The position numbers and the translations under genes are program-made. A stretch of DNA of 48,512 bases from the NCBI GenBank assembly GCA_903889565.1, contig CAISYC010000030.1, positions 1 through 48,512 of the forward strand, in the 5' to 3' direction. The notes under the pieces were generated by a model. It ran no database searches. It was not told the DNA's origin and saw only the letters and a list, made by a program, of their open reading frames with translations. Shown piece after piece: positions 35,214 to 47,397 of the stretch (position 1 is the stretch's first letter; each line of letters begins with the position of its first letter). The DNA is from an uncultured beta proteobacterium. Its GTDB lineage: Bacteria; Pseudomonadota; Gammaproteobacteria; Burkholderiales; SG8-41.

Positions 35214-35385
35214 ATGCGCCCTCCTTTTCTAACGCGTCCGCCAAGGCGGACCGATAAATTCCGGACTTTAAATTAGTTTACTTGTGTCAAACCGCGGAGG
35301 CATTTGACCGAAATCAATCCGCATCCGGCGGCGCCCGCCGACAATGTTCGTTATGCTGGCGGTTGATGGTGAGGAGGGTTCTGAC

Positions 35386-36861
35386 ATGTTCGAATCGGCT
35401 GAAATCGGTCACCGCATTGCCAAGCGCGAATACGACGGCACCGTGCCCAAGCTGCGCGAAGCCCTGCTCAAGGCGCAATACGATCTGCTCGCGGACAGGG
35501 GCTTTCCGGTGATCATCATCATCGGCGGCGTCGATGGCGCCGGCAAGGGCGAGACGGTCAACATCCTGAACGAATGGATGGATCCGCGGCATATTCATAC
35601 GCATGCCTTCGCCGAAATGTCCGATGAAGAACGCGAACGTCCGCGCATGTGGCGCTACTGGCGCGCGTTGCCGCCGAAGGGACGCATCGGTATTTTGTTC
35701 GGCGGCTGGCACACCGATCCGATCGTCAATCGCGTGATCGGCCGCACCGATGCCAACGAGATGCGGCTGGCAATGGAGGAAATCGTCCATTTCGAGCGCA
35801 TGCTCGCGGACGAAGGCGCGCTGATTCTGAAGTTCTGGTTCCATCTATCGAAGAAGGCGCAGCGTACGCGGCTCAAGGCGCTGGAGGCCGATCCGAAGAC
35901 GCGCTGGCGGGTTACCGATACCGACTGGGAGCGCTTCAAGCTCTATGACCGTTTCCGCAAGGTGTCGGAGAGCGCATTACGCGAAACCAGCACCGGTTAT
36001 GCGCCGTGGATCGTGGTCGAGGGCAGCGATCCGAACTACCGCTATGTGACGGTCGGCCGCACGGTGCTCGACGCGCTGAAAAAGCGGCTTGCCGGCAAAC
36101 GGCCGGCGGTGAGCCGGGCGGCGGCGCTGCCGGAGCCCGCGCTTGACGGACGCACGGTGCTTTCAAGTCTCGACTACACCAGCACGCTTGCGCACAAGGC
36201 ATATGGCAAGAAGCTCGAAAAATACCAGGGACAGTTGAATCTGCTCAGCAGGCACAAAAAATTCAGCCAGAAGTCGCTGATTGTCGTTTTCGAAGGCGCG
36301 GATGCCGCCGGCAAGGGCGGTGCCATTCGTCGCGTTACCGGCGCGCTCGACGCGCGTCATTACCAGGTGACTCCGGTGGCGGCGCCGACCGAAGAGGAAC
36401 GCGCGCAACCGTACCTGTGGCGCTTTTGGCGCCATTTGCCGCGCAAGGGGCGGGTGACGATTTTCGACCGCTCGTGGTACGGCCGCGTGCTGGTCGAGCG
36501 CGTCGAGAAATTCTGCTCCGAGGAGGACTGGATGCGCGCCTTTCACGAAATCAATGATTTCGAGGCGCAGCTCGCCGAGGCCGGCGGCGTGGTGGTCAAA
36601 TTCTGGCTGACCATCACCAAGGAGGAGCAGTTGCGGCGTTTTCGCGAACGTGAAAAAACGCCGTTCAAGACGTTCAAGATAACGGCCGAGGACTGGCGCA
36701 ACCGCAAGAAATGGGACGACTACGAGCGCGCGGTGTGCGACATGATTGAGCGCACCAGCAACGATCAGGCGCCGTGGGTACTGATACCGGCCAACGACAA
36801 ATACAGCGCGCGTATCCGGATTCTGCAGACGCTGTGCGAGCGGCTCGAAGCCGCGCTTTGA
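35386..36861 (+). CDS. pap: Polyphosphate:AMP phosphotransferase (double-domain PPK2)
   Basis: A 491-residue class II PPK2-type enzyme with two fused PPK2 domains, which phosphorylates AMP to ADP using polyphosphate. The first domain has IIGGVDGAGKGETVN (about residue 45) and the second EGADAAGKGGAIRR (about 305) with FDRSWYGRVLVERVE. Double-domain forms are the AMP-specific Pap type; the catalytic copy is normally the C-terminal one, consistent with its better lid motifs. ATG 35386 has GAGGAGGG 7 bases upstream; the longer frame from 35344 is less likely. Confidence 0.94.
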   Translation: MFESAEIGHRIAKREYDGTVPKLREALLKAQYDLLADRGFPVIIIIGGVDGAGKGETVNILNEWMDPRHIHTHAFAEMSDEERERPRMWRYWRALPPKGRIGILFGGWHTDPIVNRVIGRTDANEMRLAMEEIVHFERMLADEGALILKFWFHLSKKAQRTRLKALEADPKTRWRVTDTDWERFKLYDRFRKVSESALRETSTGYAPWIVVEGSDPNYRYVTVGRTVLDALKKRLAGKRPAVSRAAALPEPALDGRTVLSSLDYTSTLAHKAYGKKLEKYQGQLNLLSRHKKFSQKSLIVVFEGADAAGKGGAIRRVTGALDARHYQVTPVAAPTEEERAQPYLWRFWRHLPRKGRVTIFDRSWYGRVLVERVEKFCSEEDWMRAFHEINDFEAQLAEAGGVVVKFWLTITKEEQLRRFREREKTPFKTFKITAEDWRNRKKWDDYERAVCDMIERTSNDQAPWVLIPANDKYSARIRILQTLCERLEAAL

Positions 36862-36877: not shown

Positions 36878-38842
36878 TTAGACCGTTGCCGGCGCCGGCA
36901 GCGGCGCGGGTTCAATCACGGCAGGCTCGACCGCTTCGCCGTCGAGGCTGGCCTGAATGCGGGCCAGCACCTCGCGCTGCTGCTCGAGTACCACGCGCTG
37001 CGTTTCAAGCTGTTTCATGCGGCTTTCGACCGAACTGATGTTGTCGCGGATTTTCTTGAAATTCTCCAGGCGCTTGGACAGCACCTGTTCGTGTTCCTTG
37101 ATCTGCAGATTGAGCGGATTGAGCGCCGATTTGATCCAGCTCTCCGCATCCATGCGCGTCATTTCGAACACCTGCCGCGCTTCGCCGACCAGGCTTTCAT
37201 AGAATTTGACGACGACAAAATCCTTGTATTTGGCGACATTGACCGGGTCTTTGCAGAACTGCCGCGCGGTCGCCTGCAGACCGGTCATGGTCAAGGTGTG
37301 TTTTTCGAGATTGAGCGATGGCGGAACGAGTTTCGCGAAACCGAATTTTTCATGGAAGTGGGCGTAGGTCATGTCGACCAGCCCCTTGATCTGGTTTGCG
37401 AAGTTCAGGATCTTGCTCGAGACCGAGGTGAAATGCTGGAACAGCATCTGCATGTTTTTCCAGAGGCCGGCTGTGGTCCATGCGCCTTCGATGAATTCGC
37501 GGTCCTTGTTCAGCACTGCCTCGATCGAATCATCCTCAAGTTGCTTCAGTAACGTCGCGCCCTGGCCGGTCACGGTGTTGTAGGTGGCGCGGAAGGCCTG
37601 CACCGTGGCCTGGTAATTGGTCCGGTCGGCTTCAAGTCGCGCCACCATCGATTGCGCCATGCTGCGGCTTTTGCCGGACATGCCCGCAAGCTCCTTGAGT
37701 TCGGTGTGCGTCGCCGTCAGCTGGTTCGCCACTGCCGTGCGCGAGGCGGCGACCATGGTGCCGATCTCGCGCTGCACCGCCGCGCGCATGATTTCCTGCT
37801 TGGCAGGGATGATTTCGGAGGCGAGCAGGTGTTCGAGTTGCTGGATGCCGCTTTTCAGCAGCAGTTCGTTGTCGTCGCGCACGCGCGCGAGCAGCGCTTT
37901 TTGCGCCGACACCGCCATCACATGCGAGCGCGGCAGCATCAGCATATTGGCGGTGGCATCGATCTGGCGGTCGACGTCGCTGCTGATCTGCTCGCCGGTT
38001 TTCAATTCATCCCACATCAGATCGATTTTGTTCAACACGGCAATGCGCCGCGTTGCCGCCGGCTGCACGTATTTCTGCCAGACCTCGAGGTCTGACTTGG
38101 TGACGCCGGTGTCGATCGCCAGCAGAAACAGGATCGCGTGCGCGTTTGGAATCATCGACAGCGTCAGCTCGGGCTCGGTGCCCAGCGCGTTGAGACCCGG
38201 CGTATCGAGCACGACGAGACCGCTTTTCAGCAGCGGGTGCGGATAGCTGATGATGGCGTGGCGCCACGCCGGCACTTCGACCTGGTCGCCGTCCTTGACG
38301 ACGACCGTGGTCGACAGCGGGTCGTTTTCGTCCCACAGACCGAGTGACTTGGCCTCGTCGAGACTGACCGTCTTGACCTCGACCAGGTGTTTCATCGCCT
38401 TGGCCATTTCGTCGCGCGAATCGATGTCGAGCCTGACCTTGATCCACTCCACCGGCTGGCGTTTTAACGCGCCGACGCTTTCCTGACGCTTGCGGGTTTC
38501 GATCGGCAGCAGCCGTATATAGGGTTCGTCGGCCGGGTCATGAAAAATTTCGGTCGGGCACATGGTCGTGCGCCCCACATTCGACGGCAGCAGGCGCTGC
38601 TTGAAGTCGGAAAAGAACATCGCATTGATGAGTTCGGTCTTGCCGCGCGAGAACTCGGCGAGAAATGCGAGCGTCATGCGATCATTGCGCAGACTTTCGA
38701 TCAGATCGTAAATCCGCAGCGATTGCTGGATGTCGGCATAGCCGTTCGTATCGAGCCACGATTTATAGGACTCGATGCCGGAAATCATTTGCGTGCGCCA
38801 CTCCTGATAGTGCGCGACTTCCTGTTCGAGTTGGCTCGTCAT
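36878..38842 (-). CDS. Dynamin-like GTPase (DLP1)
   Basis: A 654-residue bacterial dynamin-family protein. The GTPase motifs are recognisable: G1 AEFSRGKTE (residues 62-70, with Ala for the usual first Gly), G2 threonines in GRTTMCPTE (90-98), G3 DTPG (213-216) and G4 NKID (271-274). Long helical stalk-like segments follow to about residue 630, then a Pro-rich tail. Such proteins remodel or repair membranes. It lies 158 bp downstream of a collinear paralogue on the same strand. The pair differs mainly in the GTPase motifs, suggesting a heteromeric machine. Confidence 0.92.
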   Translation of the reverse strand: MTSQLEQEVAHYQEWRTQMISGIESYKSWLDTNGYADIQQSLRIYDLIESLRNDRMTLAFLAEFSRGKTELINAMFFSDFKQRLLPSNVGRTTMCPTEIFHDPADEPYIRLLPIETRKRQESVGALKRQPVEWIKVRLDIDSRDEMAKAMKHLVEVKTVSLDEAKSLGLWDENDPLSTTVVVKDGDQVEVPAWRHAIISYPHPLLKSGLVVLDTPGLNALGTEPELTLSMIPNAHAILFLLAIDTGVTKSDLEVWQKYVQPAATRRIAVLNKIDLMWDELKTGEQISSDVDRQIDATANMLMLPRSHVMAVSAQKALLARVRDDNELLLKSGIQQLEHLLASEIIPAKQEIMRAAVQREIGTMVAASRTAVANQLTATHTELKELAGMSGKSRSMAQSMVARLEADRTNYQATVQAFRATYNTVTGQGATLLKQLEDDSIEAVLNKDREFIEGAWTTAGLWKNMQMLFQHFTSVSSKILNFANQIKGLVDMTYAHFHEKFGFAKLVPPSLNLEKHTLTMTGLQATARQFCKDPVNVAKYKDFVVVKFYESLVGEARQVFEMTRMDAESWIKSALNPLNLQIKEHEQVLSKRLENFKKIRDNISSVESRMKQLETQRVVLEQQREVLARIQASLDGEAVEPAVIEPAPLPAPATV

Positions 38843-39000
38843 CCGCGATTGGGGTCATCACCGGCGCCGCAGCCGGAAGGATAAAAAATCCCGCTTTTTC
38901 CGGAGCTTATGCGCAACACTTCATATGATACATCGGATTTGACGGAACGCAAACCGGCGCCCCGGCGGCGCGCCGGCAGGGCGGCGATGCTATGCCGGGG

Positions 39001-40890
39001 TCATGCCGCCGGCAGCGGATTGTTTTCGGTCGCGGGCCGGGCCGGCGGCGCGGTATTCAGCGCCAGATTGGTGCGCAGCAGGTCGAGTTGCTCGCCCTGC
39101 TTTTTCAGCGACTGGCGCTGGAAGTCGAGCTGCTTGATGCGTTCCTGCACCGAGGTCAGGTTGTCCTTCATGTTGCGCAGGCTTTCGACGCGTTTGAGCA
39201 TCAGCGTCTGCCGTTCCATGATCTGGCCATTGAGCGGGCCCAGCGCGCCGCGCAGCCAGTGTTCGGTGTCGATCCGGGTTAGTTCGAACTGCTGGCGCGC
39301 TTCTTCGACCATCCCGTCGTAGAATTTCTTGATCAGAAAGTCCTTGTAGGTCGCGATATTCAGCGGGTCGTGGCAGAACGAGCGCGCGTTTTCTTCGAGG
39401 CCGCGCATGGCGTCAAGGTGTTTTTGCAGCGTTAGCGGCGGCGGGCTCAGTTTGGCGAGACCGAAATTTTCGTGAAACTGCTGGTAAATGCCTTCGACGG
39501 CTTCGCGCAGTTTCACCGCGTAATTCATGATTTTTTCGACCTGCATGGCGAAATAGCCGAACAGGCCCTGCATGTTTTTCCACATGCCGGCGGTGGTCCA
39601 GGCACCCTGGATGAACTCGCGGTCGTGGCTCAGAATATCCTCGATGCGGTCGTCGTGCAGTGTTGCCAGCAGTTCCTGGCCCCGCGCATTGAGATCCGAG
39701 TAGATGACGTTGAAGGCGGCGACGCTTTTCTGGTAGAGCTTGCGTTCGTTTTCAAGCCGCGTCAGCATGTCCTGCGCGACGTTGCGGTTCTTGCCGAAGG
39801 TCGAGGTCAGATCCTGCATCTCCTTCACCGCGGCGATGAAGCGCGCCGCCACCGCCTGCCGCGCCGACTGCACCAGCGGACCGATTTCCTTGGCCACCGC
39901 CGACAGCAGCAGCGTCTGCCGCTCGGGAATCAGTTTTTCCGCGTGCAGTTTTTCGACGCGGTCGAAGGCGCTCATCAGCGCGGCCGATTCCTCATGCGCA
40001 AGGCGCGCCGCCACCGCCTGTTTGATCTGCAGCGAGAGCACGTTTTCGGCCGGCAACTCGAGGGTCTTGGCCACGCTTGCCGCGGTCGCCGCATCGGCGC
40101 CGGCGCCGCTGTCGAGAACGACGAATTTATGCGCCTGGGAATTTTGCGCGTATTGTTTCCAGACGTCGTGCGACGAGGTCGACAGTTCCTTGCCGAGCAC
40201 CATCAGCACCGATTGCGCGCTCGAAGCGATGCGCAATGCCACTTCCGGCTCGGCGGCCAGCATCTGCGGTCCCGGCGTGTAGAGAACGATGAGGCCGCTT
40301 TTCAGCATCGGGTGCGGCATGTTGATCAGCGCGTAGCGCCAGGCCGGGATCATGACTGCGTCGCCGCTGCGCTCGACGTTGGAGAGCGTCAGCGATTTGG
40401 CTTCGTCGATGCCGACCGCGCGTGATTCCATCAGGCTGCGCGTCGCCTCGGCGATCGATTCGGGCGAATCCGGATTGAGCCGCATGGTGATCCACTCGAT
40501 CGGACTGCGCCGCAGGTTGGCGATGCTCTCCTGCTTCTTGCGCGTGTCGATTGGCAGCACCCGCACGTACGGCGATTCGCTCGGATCATGAAAGATTTCC
40601 GTGGCGCAAAGGAATTCACTGCCGGCGCCGAGCGGCAGCAGGCCGCCGGGCAGGTCGGAAAACAGCAGCGCATTGATCAGACCGATCTTGTCCTCGGCCG
40701 ACTCGCCCATGAAGGCGAGGCGGATGCGGTCGTTGCGCAGTCCTTCGACCATGTCGTAGATGCGCAGCGTCTGCTCGATGTCGGCGTGGCCGTAGGTGTC
40801 CTGCCACGAGCGGAATTCGTCGATCGCCGCGACCAGTTTGGTGCGCCAATCGGTGTACTGGGCAATGCGTTGTTCTAGTTGGCTGGGCAT
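39001..40890 (-). CDS. Dynamin-like protein with degenerate GTPase motifs (DLP2)
   Basis: A 629-residue paralogue of the 36878-38842 protein, aligned in register from MxSQLEQ. Every nucleotide-binding motif has changed: G1 is GESAEDKIG (62-70, no second Gly and no Ser/Thr after Lys), the G2 threonine pair is SEFL (91-94), G3 is YTPG (204-207), and the G4 NKID is replaced by DSGA. The stalk regions stay similar (EFI.GAWTTAG.WKNMQ in both). It is probably a pseudo-GTPase that supports or regulates DLP1. Its start overlaps the end of the DUF167 gene by 16 bp, placing it in the proC operon. Confidence 0.9.
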   Translation of the reverse strand: MPSQLEQRIAQYTDWRTKLVAAIDEFRSWQDTYGHADIEQTLRIYDMVEGLRNDRIRLAFMGESAEDKIGLINALLFSDLPGGLLPLGAGSEFLCATEIFHDPSESPYVRVLPIDTRKKQESIANLRRSPIEWITMRLNPDSPESIAEATRSLMESRAVGIDEAKSLTLSNVERSGDAVMIPAWRYALINMPHPMLKSGLIVLYTPGPQMLAAEPEVALRIASSAQSVLMVLGKELSTSSHDVWKQYAQNSQAHKFVVLDSGAGADAATAASVAKTLELPAENVLSLQIKQAVAARLAHEESAALMSAFDRVEKLHAEKLIPERQTLLLSAVAKEIGPLVQSARQAVAARFIAAVKEMQDLTSTFGKNRNVAQDMLTRLENERKLYQKSVAAFNVIYSDLNARGQELLATLHDDRIEDILSHDREFIQGAWTTAGMWKNMQGLFGYFAMQVEKIMNYAVKLREAVEGIYQQFHENFGLAKLSPPPLTLQKHLDAMRGLEENARSFCHDPLNIATYKDFLIKKFYDGMVEEARQQFELTRIDTEHWLRGALGPLNGQIMERQTLMLKRVESLRNMKDNLTSVQERIKQLDFQRQSLKKQGEQLDLLRTNLALNTAPPARPATENNPLPAA

Positions 40891-41207
40891 GAAGCCTCCA
40901 GGCGGGCAAGCAATTTCATTGTATCGGCGTCGCAGCGGGCAAGTTCAACGATTTTTCGCCGGTTGCGGCTGCCCTGGCGGATGTTGATCTGCGAGAGAGG
41001 AAGCTTAAACCATTGATGCAGAAAGTCAATTACGGCCCGATTGGCTTTGTCATCGACCGCCGGCGCGGCGATTTTCAGTTTCAGCGCGTCGCCGTGCAGG
41101 CCCACCATCGCGGTGTTGCGCGCGTTGGGCTGGATATGCAGGGTCAAGGTGATTTTGCTGCGCGCGGGGTCGGTTTTCCACCAGCGCGCGACCGGCGCTG
41201 TCGTCAC
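40875..41207 (-). CDS. yggU: DUF167 (YggU) family protein
   Basis: A 110-residue YggU protein. The hallmark segments are LHIQPNARNT, GDALKLKIAAPAVDDKAN and INIRQGSRNRRKIVEL. Its function is unknown. I start at GTG 41207, which overlaps the yggT stop codon as GTGA; the long open frame beyond belongs to yggT in another frame. The first residues, VTTAPVARWWK, fit the family. It sits in the common yggT-yggU order. Confidence 0.9.
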   Translation of the reverse strand: MTTAPVARWWKTDPARSKITLTLHIQPNARNTAMVGLHGDALKLKIAAPAVDDKANRAVIDFLHQWFKLPLSQINIRQGSRNRRKIVELARCDADTMKLLARLEASCPAN

Positions 41208-41779
41208 AGCAGCCGCCCCAGATTGGCCTCCAGCCAGACCAGCGGCACGCCAAGCAGCAATTGGCACACCAGCAAAGCCGCCAACGGCGACAGATCGACG
41301 CCGCCGATCAAGGGGATCACCTGTTGAAACGGTCGCAGAAAGGGCCGCGTCACGCTGTTCAAAAGCGGCGCAATCGGGCTGTAAGGATTCACCCAGCTCA
41401 ACACGGCTTGCAGAATCAGCGCGCCCATTACGAGGTAAACCGCGAGCTGAAATAGCTGTATGGCGGCCATCGCCAGCAGCGCGACCGCCGCCACACCGGT
41501 CACCGCGCCGATTTGAAAGCCCTTGATCTCGACGATCAGCCACAGCTTCAGCATTTCCGTCAGCCACGCCAGCAGCAGGGTCGCCAGATCAAGTCCCCAC
41601 AGACCGGGGATCACCCGCCGCGTCGGGATGACAATGAAATTGGTGAGGGCGGCGACGAATTCGGAGAGCTGATTGCGTGCCGGCGCGCGCACCCATTGCA
41701 GAATGAAGCGCGCAAGCAGCGCGAAGGCGAACAGGTCGCCGAGCGTGGTGACGATAAAGGTCAGCGTCTGAGCCAGCAT
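41204..41779 (-). CDS. yggT: YggT family membrane protein
   Basis: A 191-residue integral membrane protein with two copies of the YggT unit, each a pair of helices. Each unit has the (L)QWV..P..N / SWVNPYSPIAPLLNSVTRPFLRP type signature. The family is linked to osmotic resistance in E. coli and to division-site membrane organisation in other bacteria. ATG 41779 is chosen because the family begins M(L)xQxL.F. It begins 7 bp after proC. Confidence 0.93.
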   Translation of the reverse strand: MLAQTLTFIVTTLGDLFAFALLARFILQWVRAPARNQLSEFVAALTNFIVIPTRRVIPGLWGLDLATLLLAWLTEMLKLWLIVEIKGFQIGAVTGVAAVALLAMAAIQLFQLAVYLVMGALILQAVLSWVNPYSPIAPLLNSVTRPFLRPFQQVIPLIGGVDLSPLAALLVCQLLLGVPLVWLEANLGRLL

Positions 41780-41786
41780 GATGAGG

Positions 41787-42611
41787 TCAGTATTTGCCGG
41801 GTTCGGCGCCGAGTTCGATGCCAAGCGCGCGGCTGCGGTCGTTCGCTGCATTAACGGCACGCATGATGGATTCCTTGACCCCGTTCGCGTGCATGCTTTT
41901 CAGCGCCGCTTCGGTGGTGCCGCCCTTGGAGGTCACGCGCTCGCGCAGAATGGCGACATCTTCGCTGCTGGCAGCCGCGAGGCGGGCCGCGCCGAGCACG
42001 GTTTCGAGCGTCAATTCCGCCGCCGTGGCGGGTGCGAGACCCAGCGCGCAGGCGGCGTCGCGTATCGCTTCCATGAAATAAAACACGTAGGCGGGGCCGC
42101 TGCCTGAAATTGCGGTCACCGCATCCAGTTGCGCTTCGTCATCGACCCACACGACTTTGCCGATGGCCTTGAGGATGCGCTCGACGCCGGCGCGTTGCTC
42201 CGCGGCCAGCCCCGCGGGTGCGCAGGCCGCAGTAATGCCGGCGCCGATGAGGGCCGGTGTGTTCGGCATGCAGCGAACGATACGCGCATAGCCGCCGAGC
42301 CAGCGCGCCAGATCGGTCACGCGTAAACCGGCGGCAATGCTCAACACGACCTGATTTTGCAGGCGTGCGCCGAGCGGCTGCAGGGCGCCGCGCATTTGTT
42401 GCGGCTTGACTGCCAGCACCACGACGTCACCGATCGCGCCGAGTTCTGCGAGGCCGGCCACCGCGGTCACACCGGCGTGTTTTGACAGTTGTGCACGCGC
42501 CGTTTCCAGCGGCTCGACAACACTGACCGCGCCGCCGTCGAAACCGTCGCGCAACAGTCCGCCGATGATGGCGCCGGCCATGTTGCCGCCGCCGATAAAG
42601 GTGATTTTCAT
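41787..42611 (-). CDS. proC: Pyrroline-5-carboxylate reductase
   Basis: A 274-residue enzyme that reduces pyrroline-5-carboxylate to proline with NAD(P)H. The dinucleotide-binding FIGGGNMAGAIIGGLL is at the N-terminus, VLAVKPQQM in the Rossmann region, and the ProC signature with SGSGPAYVFYFMEA and TSKGGTTEAAL at the C-terminus. The order yggS-proC-yggT is common in Proteobacteria. Confidence 0.97.
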   Translation of the reverse strand: MKITFIGGGNMAGAIIGGLLRDGFDGGAVSVVEPLETARAQLSKHAGVTAVAGLAELGAIGDVVVLAVKPQQMRGALQPLGARLQNQVVLSIAAGLRVTDLARWLGGYARIVRCMPNTPALIGAGITAACAPAGLAAEQRAGVERILKAIGKVVWVDDEAQLDAVTAISGSGPAYVFYFMEAIRDAACALGLAPATAAELTLETVLGAARLAAASSEDVAILRERVTSKGGTTEAALKSMHANGVKESIMRAVNAANDRSRALGIELGAEPGKY

Positions 42612-42697: not shown

Positions 42698-43387
42698 TTA
42701 ATGCTGCTGCCGCGTGCCGAATATCGCGGTGCCCACACGCACCATGGTCGAGCCCTCGGCGATCGCCGATTCGAGATCCGCCGACATGCCCATCGACAGG
42801 GTGTCGAGCGCGAGCCCCTGCGCGACCAGTGCGTCGCGCAGCGCGCGCAACTGGCTGAAGTAACCGCGCTGAACGCGCGGATCGTCACTGGCGGGCGGAA
42901 TCGACATCAATCCGCGCAGACAAAGTCGCGGCAATGCCGCCAGCGCGCGCGCCAGCGCCGGCGCCTCGGCGGGGGCGACGCCGCTTTTCGAGTTTTCGTC
43001 GCCGATATTGACCTGCAGACAAATCTGCAGCGGTGGCTGAGCTGCGGAACGCGCCGCCGACAGACGCTCGGCAATTCTCAGGCGATCGACGCTGTGCACC
43101 CAGTCGAAATGCGCCGCGATCTGGCGCGTCTTGTTGCTCTGGATGGGGCCGATAAAATGCCAAATCAGATCGGACTCGGCGAGCGCCGCAATCTTGTCGA
43201 TCGCTTCCTGCAGGTAATTTTCGCCAAATGCGCGTTGTCCCGCGGCGCGCGCGGCGCGCACCGCACCGGCGTCGAAGGTCTTGCTGACGGCGAGCAATTG
43301 AATGCCGGCGGGATCGCGTCCGCATTGCGCGGCAGCGGTCGCGATGCGGGCTTTCACCGCTTGCAAGTTGGCGCCGATTGTGTCCAT
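42698..43387 (-). CDS. yggS: YggS-type pyridoxal phosphate homeostasis protein
   Basis: A 229-residue PLP-binding protein with an alanine-racemase-like barrel. The PLP lysine is in LLAVSKTF, and FGENYLQEA, WHFIGPIQSNK and SMGMSADLESAI are conserved. It balances vitamin B6 and amino-acid pools and is not a racemase. ATG 43387 fits the family start; TTG 43399 would add four residues. It is divergent from pilT with about 100 bp between, the classical arrangement. Confidence 0.96.
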   Translation of the reverse strand: MDTIGANLQAVKARIATAAAQCGRDPAGIQLLAVSKTFDAGAVRAARAAGQRAFGENYLQEAIDKIAALAESDLIWHFIGPIQSNKTRQIAAHFDWVHSVDRLRIAERLSAARSAAQPPLQICLQVNIGDENSKSGVAPAEAPALARALAALPRLCLRGLMSIPPASDDPRVQRGYFSQLRALRDALVAQGLALDTLSMGMSADLESAIAEGSTMVRVGTAIFGTRQQH

Positions 43388-43486
43388 AATTTCAAGCAAT
43401 TATTCGGATTCGGGCGTGTGATTTTTCACGGTCCTTGCAGGCGTCCCCGACTTTGCCTGCCCGCCCGCTTTAACAGGGAAATTATA

Positions 43487-45910: not shown

Positions 45911-46654
45911 ATGCACATTCCATTCGAGTGGCACAGCCTTGCCGTCAGTGCGCTGGTCGTTGCCGGCGCCTACATCGTCTTCGGCATTACTGCCTTCGGC
46001 GCCGCATTGATCACGGTGCCGGTGCTGTCCTATTTTTATCCGCTCGATTTCGTGCTGCCGATGTGTGTGCTGCTCGATGTCGCCGCCGCGCTCGCGATGG
46101 GCGCGCGCTTTTCACGCGATGCCGATCTTGCGGAGCTCAAATGGATGGCGCCGCTATGCCTCGTCGGCGCGGTGCTCGGCGTTACGCTGCTCGTGAAATT
46201 GCCGCGCCAGGCGACGCTCGCCGCGTTCGGCAGCTTTCTGCTTTTCTACGGCGTCTATACGCTGCGCCGCAAAGAGGGCGGGCGCCTCGTCAGCCGCGCG
46301 TGGGCGCCGGTAGCGGGCTTTGCCGGCGGCTTGATGGGCACCATGTTCGGCATCGGCGCGCCGCCGTATGCAATGTATCTCTCGCACCGCAAAACCGAAA
46401 AGCTGGCGCTGCGCGCCACGCTCTCCAGCATGGTTTTGCTCTCTACCACCATCCGCGCGCTGGTCTTCACCGCCGGCGGTCTGATGCTGGCTGACCGCCT
46501 GCAGATGTTCGCGATATTGCTGCCCTTCGCGCTGGTCGGTCTGTGGCTGGGTAACCGGCTGCAGGGGCGCATTTCGCGCGAGCAGCTTGGTCGCTTCATC
46601 AGCGTGCTGGTGTTGCTGATCGGCGCTTCGGTACTGATCCGGGCATTTGCCTGA
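45911..46654 (+). CDS. TauE/SafE (TSUP) family exporter 1
   Basis: A 247-residue membrane protein of the sulfite/organosulfonate exporter family, about eight helices in two inverted halves. The repeats IVFGITAFGAALITVPVLSYF and the second-half GGLMGTMFGIGAPPYAMYL carry the family's G.G...G patterns. The substrate is unknown. ATG 45911 has no ribosome binding site because a terminator hairpin abuts it; the true start or mRNA end needs mapping. It overlaps its paralogue by one base. Confidence 0.88.
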   Translation: MHIPFEWHSLAVSALVVAGAYIVFGITAFGAALITVPVLSYFYPLDFVLPMCVLLDVAAALAMGARFSRDADLAELKWMAPLCLVGAVLGVTLLVKLPRQATLAAFGSFLLFYGVYTLRRKEGGRLVSRAWAPVAGFAGGLMGTMFGIGAPPYAMYLSHRKTEKLALRATLSSMVLLSTTIRALVFTAGGLMLADRLQMFAILLPFALVGLWLGNRLQGRISREQLGRFISVLVLLIGASVLIRAFA

Positions 46655-47397
46655 TGCTGCACAATACCGAATTCTGGCTGCTTGCGCTGCCGGTGATTTT
46701 CACCGGCTACTTCATGTTCGGCATTTCGGGTTTCGGCGCCTCGCTGATCACGGTGCCACTGCTGTCGCACGTCGAGTCGCCGGCGCAGCTGCTGCCGATG
46801 CTGGTGTTGCTCGACATGAGCGCCTCGCTGATCATGGGTGCGCGTTTTCGCGCGGATATGGCGCGCCGGGAGGTGATAGGACTGATTCCGTTCACCGTGC
46901 TCGGTTGCGCGCTCGGTGTCACGCTGCTGGTGAAACTGCCGCGTGAAGCGCTGATGATCGCGATCGGCGTGTTTACGCTTTTTTACGCGGCCTACCAGCT
47001 CTACGATCCGGTTAATGTAAAACCGATCTCGCGCGCCTGGTCCGCGCCGGCCGGTTTTGTCGGCGGCATGATGGGCACGCTGTTCGGCGCCGGCGCGCCG
47101 CCCTACGTCATGTACCTGACGCGTCGCGTCATCGACAAATCAGCCCTGCGCTCGACAATTGCCGCGATGGCGGTGCTGGCGATCGGCGCGCGCCTGCTGG
47201 CCTTTACCGGTGCCGGACTCATGTTCAACGGTGAACCGTGGCTGGTTTTTCTGCTGCTCACACCCGTCGCCGGTCTCGGTCTTTATTGCGGTCACCGCGT
47301 GCATCTGCGCATCAACCGCGCGCAGATGCTGCGCGCGATTTTCGTCATGCTGCTGGTATCGGGCGGATCGCTGCTGGCGCGTGCGCTGCTGAATTAA
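46654..47397 (+). CDS. TauE/SafE (TSUP) family exporter 2
   Basis: A 247-residue paralogue of the preceding protein, equal in length and with the same motifs: FGISGFGASLITVPLLSHV near the start and GGMMGTLFGAGAPPYVMYL in the second half. Its ATG overlaps the TGA of the first gene (TGATG), so translation is coupled. The two may form a heteromeric transporter or have different substrates. Its stop overlaps the stop of the convergent 47394-47975 gene. Confidence 0.88.
   Translation: MLHNTEFWLLALPVIFTGYFMFGISGFGASLITVPLLSHVESPAQLLPMLVLLDMSASLIMGARFRADMARREVIGLIPFTVLGCALGVTLLVKLPREALMIAIGVFTLFYAAYQLYDPVNVKPISRAWSAPAGFVGGMMGTLFGAGAPPYVMYLTRRVIDKSALRSTIAAMAVLAIGARLLAFTGAGLMFNGEPWLVFLLLTPVAGLGLYCGHRVHLRINRAQMLRAIFVMLLVSGGSLLARALLN

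Follow-up and report, generated by a model that had tools for sequence, protein, structure and literature searches.

A dynamin-like protein without GTPase motifs, encoded beside an intact paralogue in a genus of Burkholderiales

Why would a bacterium keep, next to a gene for an ordinary dynamin-like GTPase, a second copy from which every GTPase motif has gone? The question is raised by a 48,512-nucleotide contig of an uncultured beta proteobacterium (Burkholderiales; SG8-41; contig CAISYC010000030.1 of assembly GCA_903889565.1), the whole of which is called the window here and supplies all position numbers. Two dynamin-like proteins (DLPs) are encoded head to tail on its minus strand, with DLP2 upstream and DLP1 downstream. 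The original prediction saw in them an obligate heteromer of an active GTPase and a dead subunit. The overall explanation that best fits a comparison with related genomes, with a probability of about 0.6, is that DLP2 is a pseudo-GTPase which would enter a joint assembly with DLP1 by way of the stalk. The two genes and the spacer between them are as follows (BDLP, bacterial dynamin-like protein; pLDDT, predicted local distance difference test).

36878-38842, minus strand: DLP1, a 654-residue dynamin-like GTPase with intact motifs (Pfam Dynamin_N match at 2.2e-16; predicted mitofusin/BDLP fold, model pLDDT 82.4)
38843-39000, minus strand: DLP2-DLP1 spacer, 158 bases
39001-40890, minus strand: DLP2, a 629-residue dynamin-like pseudo-GTPase with all four GTPase motifs gone (predicted dynamin fold, model pLDDT 81.7)

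Motif loss across the genus

Re-reading of the window found both open reading frames (ORFs) in place and the motifs as first described. The common descent originally proposed for the two proteins holds: they are colinear over their full length, with 287 of 626 aligned residues identical (46%; score 1430) and no gap in the first 169 residues. Identity is highest in residues 1-58 (57%) and 451-560 (55%) and lowest in residues 191-450 (about 39%). Gene conversion was considered as a cause of the stalk likeness and no sign of it was seen, because same-genome and cross-genome DLP1-DLP2 identities differ by less than 0.01 in 10 of 10 alignment intervals. The motifs and the shared stalk block are located as follows.

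38636-38659, minus strand: DLP1 G1/P-loop AEFSRGKT, residues 62-69
38564-38572, minus strand: DLP1 G2 RTT, residues 91-93
38195-38206, minus strand: DLP1 G3 DTPG, residues 213-216
38021-38032, minus strand: DLP1 G4 NKID, residues 271-274
37448-37486, minus strand: DLP1 stalk block GAWTTAGLWKNMQ, residues 453-465, where the long stalk helices of the model break
40684-40707, minus strand: DLP2 former G1 GESAEDKI, residues 62-69 (G67 to D, T69 to I, K68 retained)
40612-40620, minus strand: DLP2 former G2 SEF, residues 91-93
40270-40281, minus strand: DLP2 former G3 YTPG, residues 204-207
40102-40113, minus strand: DLP2 former G4 DSGA, residues 260-263
39568-39606, minus strand: DLP2 stalk block GAWTTAGMWKNMQ, residues 429-441, near-identical to the DLP1 block

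All 15 available genomes of the genus were searched for both proteins. DLP2 is present in 13 and DLP1 in 12, some copies ending at contig edges. DLP1 was found in 12 of the 13 genomes bearing DLP2; the genes are adjacent on one contig in nine of these 12, and contig breaks intervene in three. The 11 loci with source records all come from metagenome-assembled genomes (MAGs). Two MAG records, L109 and L114, hold close DLP2 relatives (identities of 90% and 85%) but bear the titles Chitinophaga pinensis and Bordetella parapertussis, apparently through mislabelling.

The DLP2 motifs are dead throughout the genus: G1 and G2 in 13/13 copies, G3 and G4 in all 11 that are readable there. An orthologue with intact motifs, which according to the original prediction would have pointed to recent decay, was not found among the DLP2 copies of the genus. 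The replacements A62G, R83G, T92E, M94L, P96A and N271D are fixed (11/11), R66E, G67D and D213Y are nearly so (10/11), and other sites are variable. T69 has become I or V in 11/11, and the P-loop lysine K68 is retained in all 11. The G4 stretch is partly deleted, with D274, W277 and D278 (DLP1 numbering) missing in 11/11. All 10 full-length DLP1 proteins carry G1-G4.

Outside the genus, 58 homologues were inspected (28 from the order, 29 from the class and one from Desulfovibrionaceae; mainly the best-scoring loci), and every one retains G67, K68, T92, T93, D213, G216, N271, K272 and D274. The DLP1 P-loop has Ala in place of the first Gly of GxxxxGK[ST], as do 57 of these 58. At the thresholds used, matches occurred in 149 of the 300 genomes searched from the order and in 93 of the 369 from the class. 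No DLP2 orthologue was seen beyond the genus in the family genomes or in the order and class samples. The best non-genus DLP2 match in the order sample (399 genomes) scored 521.5 bits, where the DLP1 paralogue reached 587; in the class sample (369 genomes) the best non-genus match to the DLP2 profile scored 390 bits against 687. A DLP1 search of 74 family genomes gave matches confined to the genus (0/59 outside it).

DLP1 shows the sequence and structural marks of the dynamin superfamily: the GTPase motifs, a predicted BDLP/mitofusin fold and, following the G domain, a long helical stalk. Its partial match to PADLOC LeoBC (5e-14) is accompanied only by weaker ones and the neighbours are not defence genes, so an anti-phage assignment was set aside. 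DLP2 lacks the motifs but keeps the dynamin fold and stalk in its predicted model. The model has the mitofusin/BDLP-type fold, with Nostoc BDLP (2j68/2j69) as top Foldseek match (E 1.3e-17). Pfam Dynamin_N has no match in DLP2 at E<=1, and 0 of 10 DLP2 proteins match at E<=0.1; the other Dynamin_N matches in the genome of the window are the ordinary GTPases Der and Era. DLP2 is therefore not classed as a GTPase; it is a pseudo-GTPase descendant of the dynamin superfamily, and presumably no longer binds GTP.

Selection on DLP2

Maximum likelihood (ML) codon models over nine genomes gave an omega (dN/dS, the ratio of nonsynonymous to synonymous rates) of 0.069 for DLP2 and 0.075 for DLP1. In DLP1 the G domain is the more constrained region (0.060, stalk 0.088); in DLP2 the pattern is reversed (G domain 0.079, stalk 0.058). 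Pairwise NG86 dN/dS without genome G010 was 0.05-0.20 for DLP1 and 0.03-0.20 for DLP2. The fragments of G006 and G007 were left out of the trees, selection analyses and column counts, and G012 DLP2 was left out of the invariant-column, regional-tree and ML omega analyses.

In a 49-protein tree DLP2 forms a single clade (100/100) on a stem of 0.89, and the DLP1 stem is 0.17. Quick trees by region gave DLP2 stems of 2.93 for the G domain and 0.78 for the stalk (DLP1: 0.17 and 0.23). Within the genus the stalk changed less in DLP2 than in DLP1 (0.196 vs 0.268) and the G domain more (0.59 vs 0.22). Of the 104 columns at which 68 active proteins are at least 95% conserved, 49 have been lost in DLP2, 48 in the G domain and one in the stalk. 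We read the history suggested by these sequences as a burst of change followed by new constraint.

With its catalytic residues gone, its predicted fold kept and purifying selection upon it, DLP2 is almost certainly a pseudo-GTPase maintained under selection. The selection on a non-catalytic role that was originally proposed is supported by the omega of DLP2, and the stalk, for which a dN/dS near 1 had been named as contrary evidence, is far from it; all motifs were lost without decay of the rest. Recent decay was rejected, since omega is low and the motifs are dead genus-wide. That DLP2 is a decaying pseudogene not yet broken is very improbable: an in-frame TAG in G012 and faster evolution in G010 would fit it, but the omega over nine genomes already contradicts it, nine of the 13 DLP2 genes are whole and open (three are cut by contig ends and one has the stop), and the invariant columns spread over the whole length of DLP2.

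Origin of the pair and its neighbourhood

The gene order in the window is pilT, yggS, proC, yggT, yggU, DLP2, DLP1. The genes nearest to the pair, whose family assignments were confirmed, are the following.

40875-41207, minus strand: DUF167/YggU-family gene, whose 3' end overlaps the DLP2 ATG by 16 bases
41204-41791, minus strand: gene for a YGGT-family (YlmG) membrane protein, 5' end provisional
41787-42611, minus strand: proC, a neighbour common to the outgroup solo-dynamin loci
42698-43390, minus strand: yggS-family gene, 5' end not fixed

At 20 outgroup loci, about 3 to 6 kb on either side was compared, using a profile of active homologues against ORFs of at least 150 residues. Exactly one dynamin with intact motifs was found at each. 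Homologues of proC and YGGT neighbour it in 19/20, yggS in 15/20 and pilT in 15/20; yggU (about 110 residues) falls mostly under the ORF size limit. This solo dynamin is a DLP1 homologue, with 51-59% identity in the order and 37-43% in the class, and differs in having no dead partner. Solo dynamins near proC and yggT are widespread in the order and class (L147-L162, L164-L166). The DLP1-DLP2 pair therefore looks like a lineage-specific tandem duplication, unlike the usual pairs of two active GTPases. Because the outgroup solo dynamin has the same proC/YGGT neighbourhood, it is most likely that the pair took the place of a solo gene inherited from earlier forebears. The duplication of that gene, placed after yggT/yggU, would have occurred in an ancestor of the genus.

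Eight syntenic loci from seven sister genera have no dynamin. Since the 59 genomes of the same family outside the genus gave no DLP1 match either, the dynamin was lost in the sister genera or regained in the genus. In six of the eight loci (L175, L177, L178, L180, L181, L182) the slot between rng and yggT/yggU holds a cardiolipin-synthase-like phospholipase D (PLD) gene, its family named from the L182 copy at a score under the NCBIfam equivalog cut-off; in the other two, rng and yggU adjoin. Neither the window nor the genus loci searched gave a match to the PLD gene. It is suggestive that one slot houses a dynamin in some genomes and a lipid gene in others.

YlmG is the YGGT protein of Gram-positives and lies within their division cluster; in plants a relative of it influences both FtsZ rings and the nucleoids of chloroplasts, and ylmG loss in Streptococcus pneumoniae did not visibly affect division (PMC2923531, in the part of the text available). 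Literature joining YggT and dynamin gave only plastid and apicoplast matches, as judged by title or abstract. The gene neighbourhood is a hint, and no more, that the dynamins may serve the envelope or division.

The DLP2-DLP1 spacer measures about 131-201 bases across nine genomes (ends set by matches) and is weakly conserved. A consensus scan of the 158-base spacer found no promoter-like site for DLP1, and a DLP1 promoter of its own there was rejected on these two grounds. A PPK2 (polyphosphate:AMP phosphotransferase) gene at 35344-36861 is convergent to DLP1. It is not at this position in five genomes (G010, G011, G013, G014, G001) and therefore does not travel with the dynamins. Elsewhere in the window (45911-47397) two tandem TauE/SafE-family genes have ORFs overlapping by one base; their cross-matches in relatives are about 46-51% identical.

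Proposed partnership with DLP1 and known dynamin systems

DLP2 is unable to supply a second active site, and for this reason DLP1-DLP1 contacts between G domains, with DLP2 as a co-subunit at stalk level, are proposed. DLP1, the downstream copy, would have remained an ordinary dynamin GTPase after the duplication. DLP2, the upstream one, would have passed through a burst of change, strongest in the G domain, and lost the residues for Mg2+ and GTP binding, before coming under purifying selection of the same strictness as acts on DLP1. It would be a non-catalytic subunit, joined to DLP1 by the conserved stalk and tip, and might anchor, space or limit DLP1 in a membrane-bound polymer in which GTP is hydrolysed through the DLP1-DLP1 contacts. 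That DLP2 is a partner of DLP1 carries the same odds as the explanation as a whole. The fuller picture, a mixed membrane polymer with a fixed dead subunit in which DLP1 alone does the GTP work and DLP2 sets geometry or timing, is tentative and falls somewhat short of even odds.

The word "obligate" is unsupported as originally used. In the 69%-complete assembly G010 the DLP2 frame is open, rng ends 76 bases from the DLP2 match and there is no space for DLP1 or PPK2; DLP1 was not found in that assembly, where the Dynamin_N matches are Era and FeoB. In G001, where rng, yggU and proC are lined up, neither dynamin is present, nor is yggT. The G002 locus is unreadable, its contig ending within rng. 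Given G010, DLP2 may act alone, for instance as a nucleotide-free membrane scaffold or tether whose pairing with DLP1 is a mere trace of duplication. This is unlikely, although the DLP2 stalk is retained and the hydrophobicity of its tip block slightly exceeds that of the three outgroup proteins compared: DLP1 accompanies DLP2 in all genomes but G010, derived stalk residues are common to the two proteins, and DLP2 evolves at a higher rate in G010. There the ratio of DLP2 to core-gene distance averages 1.48 (1.27-1.60), against 0.94 (0.41-1.43) for pairs without G010, and pairwise DLP2 dN/dS is 0.19-0.37. The rise is as expected if constraint relaxed after DLP1 was lost, but G010 is a fast lineage anyway. 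The neighbour-gene tree took wrong pilU paralogues for G003 and G006; pilU was excluded from the rate comparison, and the tree was used only to place G001 and G010 as nested in the genus and G010 as a fast lineage.

A further alternative is that DLP2 inhibits or times DLP1: as a decoy it would cap or poison the active polymer and would not be one of its building blocks. The same predicted fold, similar length and conserved stalk would suit such a decoy, and the upstream place with the 16-base yggU overlap could tie its expression to the upstream genes. The stalk constraint fits structural support equally, so the data do not separate the two; a decoy is judged improbable, more so than a scaffold acting alone.

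Several observations weigh against co-assembly of a dead subunit with DLP1. Besides the lone DLP2 of G010, the rate rise there could stem from the lineage or from poor assembly, and pairs with G014, which has both genes, also reach a ratio of 1.43. The G012 TAG (L006) lies near residue 533 with the rest conserved, and may be an assembly error or the start of decay. The DLP2 stalk was accelerated on the stem as well (0.78 vs 0.23). The correlation is 0.93 between DLP1 and DLP2 distances and 0.82 with core genes, a difference that linkage and uneven core-gene coverage may explain. DLP1 and DLP2 group as sisters with weak support (71/25), and an alternative placing DLP2 with four proteins of another family was not rejected (approximately unbiased test, p-AU 0.449), so the depth assigned to the duplication is tentative. 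The DLP2 model was built on an alignment including active homologues, which can pull the fold, and a DLP2 sequence profile found no dynamin in the PDB, so the dynamin link to known structures comes from the predicted fold. Finally, K68 is kept, and DLP2 may bind some ligand. A pocket re-purposed for another ligand, made up of K68, E92 (fixed) and D67 (almost fixed), would agree with their conservation (11/11, 11/11 and 10/11) and with the G-domain omega; it is nonetheless highly improbable, as the G domain changes faster than the rest of DLP2 and the G4 region is partly deleted.

Known dynamins mark out what is unusual in this pair. Nostoc BDLP is a GTPase, and so are both mitofusin isoforms, 1 and 2. 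Nostoc BDLP is also the best PDB sequence match of DLP1 (4.8e-9); it differs from DLP2, which has no motifs, and its global fit to the DLP2 model is loose (template modelling score, TM, 0.43), as would be expected of hinged domains. Mitofusins are eukaryotic and only 13-16% identical in the alignments made here. LeoA/LeoBC resemble the pair in having dynamin genes in tandem; the published account has LeoBC as a canonical dynamin-like protein in split form and LeoA as keeping most GTP-hydrolysing residues (PMC4159319, available text).

The analogy with known bacterial pairs drawn in the original prediction needs correction. In Campylobacter jejuni, Cj-DLP1 and Cj-DLP2 are nearly inactive as single proteins, mutating either P-loop halts GTP turnover, and the two are joined by an assembly domain described as peculiar to Campylobacter (PMC6104087, passages available). 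The genes studied here are likewise two adjacent dynamin genes, but one partner has no GTPase motifs and the outgroup loci have a solo gene. With the DLP2 motifs lost, turnover through two P-loops cannot apply. In the accessible part of a commentary, two active sites are needed for hydrolysis in DynA and Cj-DLP1/2, the reason for dynamin hetero-oligomers is open, and a regulatory or stabilising second partner is suggested (PMC6162298). No naturally GTPase-dead bacterial dynamin was seen among the matches listed in the open-licence literature, its absence from print being unproven. If the proposed reading is true, the pair is a natural counter-example to the two-active-site rule stated for Cj-DLP1/2 and DynA. 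One copy kept catalysis and the other only fold and stalk, while the solo gene persists in other families of the order. Evolution's split of these functions makes the role of a non-catalytic dynamin subunit directly testable, solo relatives in related genomes allow direct comparison, and the pair offers a natural test of why bacterial dynamins occur in pairs.

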